The position numbers and the translations under genes are program-made. A stretch of DNA of 9,833 bases from Deltaproteobacteria bacterium (lineage in GTDB: Bacteria > CG2-30-53-67). Under the pieces are notes generated by a model, which saw only the letters and a program-made list of their open reading frames with translations, ran no database searches and was not told the origin of the DNA. This document shows, one piece after another, positions 1,201 through 9,756 of this stretch. The stretch spans positions 1-9,833 of the forward strand of contig JAADIO010000045.1 of assembly GCA_013151235.1 (NCBI GenBank). The letters run 5' to 3'. Within the stretch, counting starts at the first letter, position 1, and the number at the start of each line of letters is the position of its first letter.

Positions 1201-1740
1201 TTATTTCCCGGGACGCAGCCGGTAGCGTTCCATCTCGCTGTAGATGCAGCCGCAATAGGGCTGGCGATACATCCCCAACTTCCGGGACCGGTCGGCTCCC
1301 TCTTTCCATCCCGGACGAAAATCTTCGTAAATAAACGGGACCCCTGCCTTCTCCCCCGCCTCCTCAGCGATTTGCCGGATCAGGTCATGCTTCTGATAAA
1401 TACTGTAGAGAAGCGTCGTGGAAAAACCGTCAAAGTTTCCCGCACGGGCCTCCTCTGCCGCAGAGGCAAGCCTCATCCGGTAACAGTATCGACAACGGTC
1501 TTCTTCACGAAAAACCACTTCCCGGAGAAATTCCTTCAACTGATCATCCTCCCGCACCTTGAGGGGAAGGTCAATCGAATCGGCATAATCAACGAGAGTA
1601 GCCAGCCGCTTCTTCCACTCCCGGTAGGGATGGATGTTGGGGTTAAAAAAATACCCGGTGACCTCCCGATCCGCCCGGCGGAGCCGGTCGAGGGGATAAA
1701 CCGAACAGGGCCCGCAGCAGATATGAAGAAGAAGTTTCAA
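1201..1740 (-). CDS. queH: Epoxyqueuosine reductase QueH (DUF208 family)
   Basis: QueH reduces epoxyqueuosine to queuosine in tRNA. It is the cobalamin-independent alternative to QueG. The 179-aa protein starts with LLHICCGPC (Cys8, Cys9, Cys12), followed by [11 protein letters not shown], the CRYCYRMR pair (Cys83, Cys86), GFSTTLLYS and PYCGCIYSE (Cys163, Cys165). This is the cysteine layout of the family, and the cysteines are candidate ligands for its iron-sulfur cluster and extra metal. The start is a TTG that overlaps the ruvB stop by 4 nt (TTGA), preceded by GGGAGA at good spacing, so translation is probably coupled to ruvB. Its product acts directly on the QueA product encoded downstream. 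Confidence 0.93.
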
Positions 1741-2780
1741 AACATTTCTCCCTGGGCAAGCCCGTCCTGACCGGTCCGGCCCGGAGGATAAGGGACCCCG
1801 AAATGTTCATAGGCAATCCGGGTGGCCACCCGTCCCCGGGGAGTGCGTGCCAGGTATCCGTGCTGAATCAGGTAGGGCTCAAAAACATCTTCAATCGTGT
1901 CGCGCTCCTCCCCGATGGCCGCCGAAAGGGTGGAAATCCCGACCGGCCCCCCGTCGAACTTCTCGATCAATGTCCGGATCAGTTTCTGGTCCATATGGTC
2001 CAGCCCCAGGGGGTCCACATCAAGCTGGAGCAGGGCCCGGTCGGCAATCGTCCGGGTGATGATCCCGTCCCCCTCCACCTCGGCAAAATCCCGGACCCGC
2101 CGCAGGAGACGATTGGCGATCCGCGGTGTTCCCCTGGACCGCCGGGCGATTTCATAGCCCCCCTCCTCTTCGACCTTCACGGAAAGAAGCCGGGCGGAAC
2201 GAATAACGATTCTCGTCAGGTCCTCGACCCCGTAGAAGTTGAGCCGATCGACCACCCCGAACCGGTCCCGAAGGGGCGACGTCAGAAGCCCGGCCCGGGT
2301 CGTCGCCCCCACCAGGGTGAAACGGGGAAGATCGAGTTTGATCACCCGGGCCGACGGCCCTTCGCCCAACATGATATCAAGCTGGAAATCCTCCATGGCC
2401 GGGTAGAGGAGTTCCTCCACCGTCCGGTTCAGCCGGTGGATCTCATCAACGAAGAGGACGTCCCGATCCTTGAGATTGGTCAGGACGGCCGCAAGATCCC
2501 CCGGACGTTCCAGGACCGGACCGGAAGTCGCCTTGATATTGACTCCCATCTCCGACGCAATAATATGAGAAAGAGTGGTTTTCCCCAACCCCGGAGGACC
2601 GTAAAGAAGGACATGATCCAGGGCCTCTCCCCGCCCCCGGGCCGCATCGACAAAAATCCGCAGATTCCTCTTCAGCTTCTCCTGCCCCACAAAATCCGTA
2701 AGAACGTTGGGCCGAAGACTCACATCAAGGGGAATCTCTTCCTCCTGCTTTTCCGGACTGATAATCCGATCTTCTTCCAT
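1737..2780 (-). CDS. ruvB: Holliday junction branch-migration helicase RuvB
   Basis: RuvB is the AAA+ ring motor that drives branch migration of Holliday junctions together with RuvA. The 347-aa product has the family start [17 protein letters not shown] (about residues 21-37), Walker [10 protein letters not shown] (61-69), Walker B LFVDEIH (109-115), sensor GATTRAG (158-164), the arginine-finger segment PLRDRF (169-174), and a C-terminal winged-helix domain with [13 protein letters not shown]. Nothing is missing. The gene follows ruvA but is separated from it by an inserted 329-bp repeat element. Its ribosome-binding site appears to be AAGG in AAGGCATAAGCT just before the ATG, and part of that is the duplicated target sequence of the insertion. 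Confidence 0.97.
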
Positions 2781-2785
2781 AGCTT

Positions 2786-2792
2786 ATGCCTT
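2786..2792. repeat. Left target-site duplication of repeat element copy A
   Basis: ATGCCTT occurs here and again at 3122-3128, immediately outside the inverted-repeat ends of the element. The match extends to 8 bp (ATGCCTTG) if the first G of the element is counted. On the ruvB strand it reads AAGGCAT, which supplies the probable ruvB Shine-Dalgarno. Confidence 0.7.
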
Positions 2793-3121
2793 GATGGTCT
2801 CGTAAAAAGTCACGAAGCCCTTCGACCCTTCGGCCAGCTCAGGACAGGCCCTTCGGCTGGCTCAGGACAGGCCCTTCGATGCTTCGATAAACTCAGCACA
2901 GGCCCGCTCAGGGCGAACGGTGTAAGTTATTGATATTCCGTTCGTGTGGTTCGGCGAACTTCCGAGCATGGTGAGCTTGCCGAACCACATGCTCGGAAAA
3001 TTTAATGGACCGTTCGTGGTGAGCTTGCCGAACCACATGCTCGGAAAATTTAATGGACCGTTCGTGGTGAGCCTGTCGAACCATGAACGGAATCCGGAAA
3101 ACAACTCTTTACGACTTCATC
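2793..3121. mobile_element. MITE/REP-like element copy A between ruvA and ruvB
   Basis: This is a 329-bp non-coding element. One end is GATGGTCTCGTAAAAAGTC and the other, read on the opposite strand, is GATGAAGTCGTAAAGAGTT, so the termini are imperfect inverted repeats. ATGCCTT direct repeats flank it. The inside is a patchwork of short inverted repeats (CCCTTCGA, GCTCAGGACAGG, CCGTTCGTGGTGAG, TCCGAGCATG with CATGCTCGGA), able to fold into several hairpins. It also contains a perfect 48-bp tandem duplication at 2970-3065. Open frames over it are low-complexity translations of the repeat and are not real genes. It fills nearly all of the 368-bp ruvA-ruvB gap, which would be 32 bp without it. 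Confidence 0.85.
2970..3065. repeat. 48-bp tandem duplication inside element copy A
   Basis: Two adjacent 48-bp units start at 2970 and 3018, each beginning GGTGAGCTTGCCGAACC and ending ATGGACCGTTCGT. A third start at 3066 diverges to GGTGAGCCTGTCG. One such unit (with AAGCTT in place of AATTT) is also present in the copy at 9604-9756, and none is present in the copy at 5254-5423. Members of the family therefore differ by modular gain and loss. Confidence 0.85.
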
Positions 3122-3128
3122 ATGCCTT
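3122..3128. repeat. Right target-site duplication of repeat element copy A
   Basis: This second ATGCCTT copy is immediately outside the CATC terminus of the element and matches 2786-2792. Confidence 0.7.
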
Positions 3129-3148: not shown

Positions 3149-3754
3149 TCAAGCCTTTGAGAGCGAACGAAGGGACTCACGAATCAATTCTTCGACGGAA
3201 CGTCCTTCCTCTTCGGAAGCGAGACCCCGGATGATCTCGGCCACCTCTCCCCGCTTGTACCCTAAATGAATCAGGGCCGCCACTGCGTCCTTATAAGGAC
3301 ACTCCTCCAGCACCTCCCTGTTGGCGGTTCCACCCCCCTCTGTATCGAGGCCGGGAGGGACCTTGTCCTTCAGCTCCATACAGATCCGTTCCGCCGTTTT
3401 CCGCCCCACGCCGGGAATCCCGCTCAACCGTCCGACATCTTCGTCCAGAATCGCCGAGCGGAGACTTCCCGCATCCAACCCGGACAGAATGGCCAATGCC
3501 ATTTTCGGTCCGATCTTGGAAACGGAAATGAGCAATTTGAAAAACTCCTTTTCCGAGGCGGTCAGAAATCCGAAGATCTGAATGGCATCTTCCCGGACAT
3601 GGGTATGGGTCTTCAGGCGGACCGGTTCCCCGATCTCGGGCAACTGGTCATAGGTAGAAAGAGGAATGGAGACTTGATACCCCACGCCGCCCACATCAAC
3701 AATAATCTCGGAAGGGACCTTCGACTCCAGCACCCCTTTGAGCTGTGCAATCAT
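3149..3754 (-). CDS. ruvA: Holliday junction DNA-binding protein RuvA
   Basis: RuvA forms tetramers that hold the four-way junction and load RuvB. The 201-aa protein has an N-terminal OB-fold (about residues 1-62, MIAQLKGVLE to AIQIFGF). Two helix-hairpin-helix motifs follow: VSKIGPKMALAIL (about 78-90) and LSGIPGVGRKTAERI (about 110-124). After a flexible acidic/Gly linker (about 131-150) comes the C-terminal RuvB-binding domain (about 151-201, YKDAVAALIHLGYKRGE). Length and layout are typical. It begins 20 nt after the ruvC stop with only a weak Shine-Dalgarno, so it is probably translated from the shared mRNA. Its downstream partner ruvB has been pushed away by a repeat insertion. Confidence 0.97.
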   Translation of the reverse strand: MIAQLKGVLESKVPSEIIVDVGGVGYQVSIPLSTYDQLPEIGEPVRLKTHTHVREDAIQIFGFLTASEKEFFKLLISVSKIGPKMALAILSGLDAGSLRSAILDEDVGRLSGIPGVGRKTAERICMELKDKVPPGLDTEGGGTANREVLEECPYKDAVAALIHLGYKRGEVAEIIRGLASEEEGRSVEELIRESLRSLSKA

Positions 3755-5247: not shown

Positions 5248-5253
5248 AAAATT
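5248..5253. repeat. Left target-site duplication of repeat element copy B
   Basis: AAAATT occurs here and at 5424-5429, immediately outside the GATG and CATC ends of the element. The match extends to AAAATTGAT (9 bp) because the element itself starts with GAT. Confidence 0.6.
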
Positions 5254-5423
5254 GATGCTCTCGTAAAAAGTCGTTTTCCGGATTCCGTTCATGGTTCGAC
5301 AGGCTCACCACGAACGGAATATCAATCACTTACACCGTTCGCCCTGAGCGGGCCTGTCCTGAGCCGGCCGAAGGGCCTGTCCTGAGCCGGTCGAAGGGCT
5401 TCGTGACTTTTTACGACACCATC
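5254..5423. mobile_element. MITE/REP-like element copy B in the 5' leader of the REC gene
   Basis: This 170-bp element is inverted relative to copy A. Its ends are GATGCTCTCGTAAAAAGTC and, on the opposite strand, GATGGTGTCGTAAAAAGTC, matching at 17 of 19 positions. Inside are GGTTCGACAGGCTCACCACG and duplicated GGCCTGTCCTGAGCCGG units. AAAATT direct repeats flank it. It sits between the promoter at 5213-5241 and the start codon at 5452, so it should be transcribed as a structured leader. The frame running over it on the minus strand is not a gene. Confidence 0.85.
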
Positions 5424-5429
5424 AAAATT
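5424..5429. repeat. Right target-site duplication of repeat element copy B
   Basis: This second AAAATT is directly after the CATC end of the element and extends to AAAATTGAT through 5432. Confidence 0.6.
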
Positions 5430-9593: not shown

Positions 9594-9603
9594 TGTATTT
9601 TCT

Positions 9604-9756
9604 TGAAGTCGTAAAAAGTCCGTTCGACCCTTCGACACGCTCAGGACGAACGGTGTAAGTCATTGATATTCCGTTCGTGTGGTTCGGCAAGCTTCCGAGC
9701 ATGGTGAGCTTGCCGAACCACATGCTCGGAAAGCTTAATGGACCGTTCGTGGTGAG
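9604..9756. mobile_element. Truncated MITE/REP-like element copy C
   Basis: It begins TGAAGTCGTAAAAAGTC, matching the right end of copy A (opposite strand), and carries CGAACGGTGTAAGTCATTGA and one 48-bp-type unit with TCCGAGCATG and CATGCTCGGA arms. It stops at CCGTTCGTGGTGAG, where the sequence switches into the REP-like tract at 9757-9794, so the second terminus is missing. The minus-strand frame over it is not a gene. Confidence 0.75.

Follow-up and report, generated by a model that had tools for sequence, protein, structure and literature searches.

The ruvA-ruvB junction of this genome holds a 329-bp element that carries no gene, which raises the question of what the element is and how it could have entered between the two genes with the ruvB ribosome-binding site preserved. 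The window (the whole 9,833-nt stretch of DNA that was analysed) corresponds to contig C45, in full, of a genome of 2.62 Mb, and its minus-strand genes are a yebC-like gene, ruvC, ruvA, ruvB, a queH-like gene and queA. The features needed here are listed below, where TSD denotes a target duplication and SD a Shine-Dalgarno sequence.

1737-2780, minus strand: ruvB (open reading frame; tblastn against relatives)
2786-2792, minus strand: TSD copy adjoining ruvB, AAGGCAT on the coding strand, with the ruvB SD
2793-3121, no strand assigned: ruvA-ruvB copy of the MITE, 329 bp (paired ends and 7-bp TSD; related copies genome-wide)
2793-2811, plus strand: terminal inverted repeat GATGGTCTCGTAAAAAGTC (end-pattern scan, pairing)
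2826-2878, no strand assigned: 23-bp tandem unit CCCTTCGGCCAGCTCAGGACAGG, 2.3 copies, inside the ruv element
2969-3083, no strand assigned: 48-bp tandem unit, 2.4 copies, inside the ruv element
3103-3121, minus strand: terminal inverted repeat GATGAAGTCGTAAAGAGTT (end-pattern scan, pairing)
3122-3128, minus strand: TSD copy on the ruvA side
3149-3754, minus strand: ruvA (open reading frame)
5254-5423, no strand assigned: second intact family copy, 170 bp, with TSD AAAATT at 5248-5253 and 5424-5429
1-119, no strand assigned: partial family copy past the 3' end of queA, with one end at 101-119
9603-9756, no strand assigned: degenerate, truncated family copy (sequence relatedness)

An earlier note on this DNA had placed a 329-bp element between ATGCCTT repeats, and these borders prove exact to the base, the element occupying 2793-3121 and the repeats 2786-2792 and 3122-3128. 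Its description of the ends as inverted GATG...CATC is right as to the inversion, while the repeats are not limited to those bases and extend over about 19 bp (GATGNNNTCGTAAANAGTY). Deletion of the element and one repeat leaves, from the coordinates, the 32-bp ruvA-ruvB gap that had been proposed. Read along the coding strand, the junction is ...GGGAAGC AAGGCAT/GATGAAGTCG...CGAGACCATC/AAGGCAT AAGCT ATG, with slashes at the element borders, and the duplication does hold the ruvB SD as claimed: AAGG lies in the ruvB-side TSD copy, 8 nt from the ATG, its normal spacing. No family member found is longer than the ruv copy, which owes its length to the tandem array of the 48-bp unit.

About 85 copies of the family are present in the window's own 2.6-Mb genome. 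Scanning this genome for the end pattern GATGNNNTCGTAAANAG, with one mismatch allowed and the reversed pattern as control, gave 171 sites compared to 1 for the control; most of these pair in inverted orientation, 100-330 bp apart. The family ends read GATGNNNTCGTAAAAAGTC, and the two ends of one element often differ in three variable bases (GATGAAG versus GATGGTG/GATGGTC). An exact 6-7-bp TSD flanks 42 of the 50 paired elements, whereas 2,000 shuffles of the right flanks produced 1.2 such matches on average and never more than 6. Duplications of both 6 and 7 bp are real, as the element borders fix the position of both TSD copies, and the reading of the 7-bp TSD as 6 bp plus a chance base was rejected on this ground. 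With 19-bp inverted ends on both sides, a TSD, short length and no transposase gene, these elements have the characters of a MITE. Copies in this genome are at most 98.4% identical, the closest full-length pair differing by 1.6%, and TSD-bearing elements span 42-329 bp; the shortest, of 42 bp, consists of two ends only (L131, 1500-1542). Contig breaks often fall within family elements, as seen at the window's contig ends and at many contig ends of assemblies G000 and G001, and these repeats thus limit the assemblies.

The parent transposon was searched for among the DDE_Tnp_1 genes of nine chosen genomes, of which one in the same genus as the window (L294) proved to be bounded by family ends. 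A relative of its product was found in Desulfatitalea sp. BRH_c12 (L305), where a 1,891-bp IS carries both family ends (GACGAACTCGTAAAAAGT(A/C)), an exact 6-bp TSD, AAACTT, and one 595-aa transposase ORF. The same-genus IS (L294/L304) is 1,937 bp long and has the same layout as in L305, with no matching TSD at the borders of the L294 copy. The L294 product (P0001) is also 595 aa, the two transposases are 47-48% identical, and in both elements the stop codon of the transposase overlaps the inverted repeat. Transposase pieces adjoin family ends in three further genomes. Two other kinds of candidate were set aside: ORFs adjoining unpaired ends, which by eye resemble housekeeping genes, and locus L297, where a different IS (575-2501; 546-aa ORF with a DDE_Tnp_1 match; ends GAGACTGTGTCA) is inserted inside a family MITE.

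The parent transposase contains the Pfam domains DDE_Tnp_1_6, DDE_Tnp_1 and DUF772, and matches nearly the whole length of the NCBIfam IS1182 model at 149-159 bits. This near-full-length match, together with DUF772 and DDE_Tnp_1_6, is shared with the IS1182 family; the scores of 159 bits (the L294 product) and 149 bits lie below the curated cut-off of 270, and the parent is therefore called IS1182-like only. It may belong to another named group, perhaps that of ISDol1.

Taken together, these sequence data make it highly probable that the ruv element is a non-autonomous MITE moved in trans by the DDE transposase of an IS1182-like IS, and we infer action in trans because the MITE shares its ends with that IS. 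In the proposed course of events, the transposase would have nicked the two strands of the target AAGGCAT 7 nt apart and joined the element to it; repair would then have copied the target, so that an intact SD remained next to ruvB. The insertion would have been kept by selection because ruvA and ruvB were both still translatable. The ruvA-ruvB mRNA presumably includes the element as a long, structured spacer. An intact transposase gene was not detected in the window's own genome, where only an N-terminal relic was found (C33, 49680-49872); the copies there may thus no longer move, or the assembly may lack the IS.

As a further line of evidence, the joined flanks of 14 insertions in this genome were searched for in five relatives. 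At locus L118, the same-genus relative G001 has an empty site with a gap-free alignment across the junction and only one AAGGAAT, the SD of the gene that follows; this clean empty site shows that the SD was duplicated by an insertion in the lineage of the window's genome. G001 also aligns across the junctions of L070 and L100 without the element, less cleanly than at L118. The claim that the family transposes is thereby upheld by its TSDs, an autonomous parent and empty sites in a relative, with the duplication of an SD seen directly at L118. For ruvA-ruvB itself, no empty site was found in the five family-level relatives, in which the element is absent and the junctions are too diverged to align. 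The gap there is 4 bp in G001 and about 36-38 bp in G003 and G005, and in G002 and G004 it consists of 9-bp tandem arrays. These arrays of the unit AACCGTTTA, found in two relatives of another genus (L035, 1325-1489, and L034), are an independent expansion of the ruvA-ruvB spacer.

The sites chosen by the element follow a rule. In 157 de-duplicated elements from many genomes, selected for having a 6-7-bp TSD, the target is the palindrome TYAWNNWTRA, and 6-bp TSDs have A as the first base in 93% and T as the last base in 93%. Insertions often fall on stop codons because the target contains T/RA: at 14 of 70 gene ends, the TSD finishes with the T of the stop codon and the first bases of the element, GA, rebuild TGA. 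Selection for such sites was considered and rejected, as 12.7 of the 14 observed cases are expected from the motif by itself and no selection is needed; a cross-trained test of the motif gave 16 observed cases compared to 10.8 expected. With T/RA in the target and GA at the element end, T/GA restores the stop codon, and SDs of the AAGG type fit in the duplicated stretch. We tentatively raise the idea, which we consider doubtful, that target choice and ends fit each other in such a way that translation signals are rebuilt on insertion, as an evolved low-damage strategy for operons; if true, matched ends and target would let the element sit within operons.

In regard to how often an SD is duplicated, the two sets of elements differ. 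In the first set, 7 of 36 gene starts (ruvB and six others) have the SD inside the TSD, compared to 0.2-0.7 expected from the motif, and 3 gene starts were scored as severed from their SD versus 7.5 expected. The second, independent set has 0 of 18, and the enrichment was not replicated; with both sets pooled, the SD lies wholly within the TSD at 7 of 54 gene starts near elements. The duplication at ruvB could accordingly be read as a chance coincidence without significance, for which the second set speaks, as does the weak signal of a 4-nt SD. We regard this as somewhat unlikely given the excess over motif expectation in the first set, the clustering of 5 of the 7 cases within the window's own genome, and the clean empty site behind one of them. 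SD duplication within the TSD is recurrent in this genome, which falls short of establishing a general preference. That the SD was preserved calls for no special mechanism, since the target motif can match AAGG-type SDs and every TSD retains its target.

An altered RuvA:RuvB ratio, which the earlier note had suggested, is possible and is without support here. The corresponding explanation is that of a regulatory insertion, kept since it tunes RuvA:RuvB through mRNA hairpins or RNase processing. RNA of the ruv element is predicted to be strongly structured (-147 kcal/mol), and the operon RNA spanning it is much more stable than its shuffled versions (z -4.65); Correia elements, according to a review (PMC10969869), are cut in mRNA by RNase III. 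Against this, neither a promoter nor a terminator was found in the ruv element, and the predicted accessibility of the ruvB SD is no lower than that of the empty form with joined flanks, with a pairing energy of -3.0 kcal/mol that is near the -3.2 of the same-genus relative. The ruvA-ruvB spacer also varies widely in relatives that have no element, and dozens of family copies lie in unrelated junctions, all of which makes it improbable that the insertion was kept for regulation.

The interiors of the elements consist of palindromic modules, TTCGAC..CTCAGG..GAACGG, for example at 2817-3093 of the window (TTCGACAAGCTCAGGGCGAACGG). Clustering on interiors, with the shared ends left out, gave three large groups: the TTCGAC-CTCAGG type of the ruv copy, a GTCATTCC-GGAATCCAG type from other genomes, and a third type. 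The first module occurs in 82 copies in the window's own genome, some of them where no element end is listed. Modules like those of REP/dRS3-type repeats (TTCGACAAGCTCAGG..., GTCATTCC..GGAATCCAG) form the cargo of the family; they differ from such repeats in being enclosed by transposon ends and flanked by target duplications. Despite this resemblance to REP sequences, a REP/RAYT-type or other palindromic repeat, moved by a single-strand Y1 transposase and flanked by direct repeats only by chance, is hardly credible in view of the consistent 6-7-bp TSDs, the 19-bp inverted ends and the DDE-transposase IS with matching ends; to our knowledge, no Y1-type element makes duplications of 6-7 bp.

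The family's exact end pattern is present in 87 of the 297 genomes sampled from the phylum of Desulfogranum marinum (L173 is that isolate), with a maximum of 584 ends per genome and a single control match across all 297. In a scan of a contig catalogue, the matches listed were nearly exclusively from Deltaproteobacteria, with a few labelled Aminicenantes, Nitrospirae and Neomarinimicrobiota. In phage and viral collections, the end pattern had no matches or mostly ones attributable to chance. Searches of the open-licence literature with the end and interior motif strings returned no relevant paper; this is apparently a large family in bacteria of the sulfate-reducer type that has no earlier name as far as could be searched.

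Short non-autonomous repeats in operons and intergenic gaps include Correia, RUP and BOX of Neisseria and Streptococcus, which are like the present family in this placement and differ from it in ends and hosts. Closer in host is the Chunjie MITE of Geobacter uraniireducens (Chen et al. 2008 Genetics), reported inside an operon for phosphate uptake according to a review (PMC10969869). As portrayed there, it is a short non-coding MITE of 178-235 bp with tens of copies in the same broad host group.

Common and apparently undescribed intergenic repeats in Desulfobacterota-type genomes are hereby tied to a definite parent transposon and a target rule, explaining how copies can enter essential operons without breaking them. 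Whether an IS can evolve ends and a target preference by which stop codons and ribosome-binding sites are repaired becomes a testable question. In the annotation of such genomes, the family accounts for many spurious short ORFs and many contig breaks. Lengths of the 157 elements from many genomes cluster at 132-133 and 151-154 bp, and across 21 interior groups a length period near 10.5-11 bp is seen (p about 0.002-0.005, jitter test), as if the two ends of a short element had to face the same side of the DNA helix.
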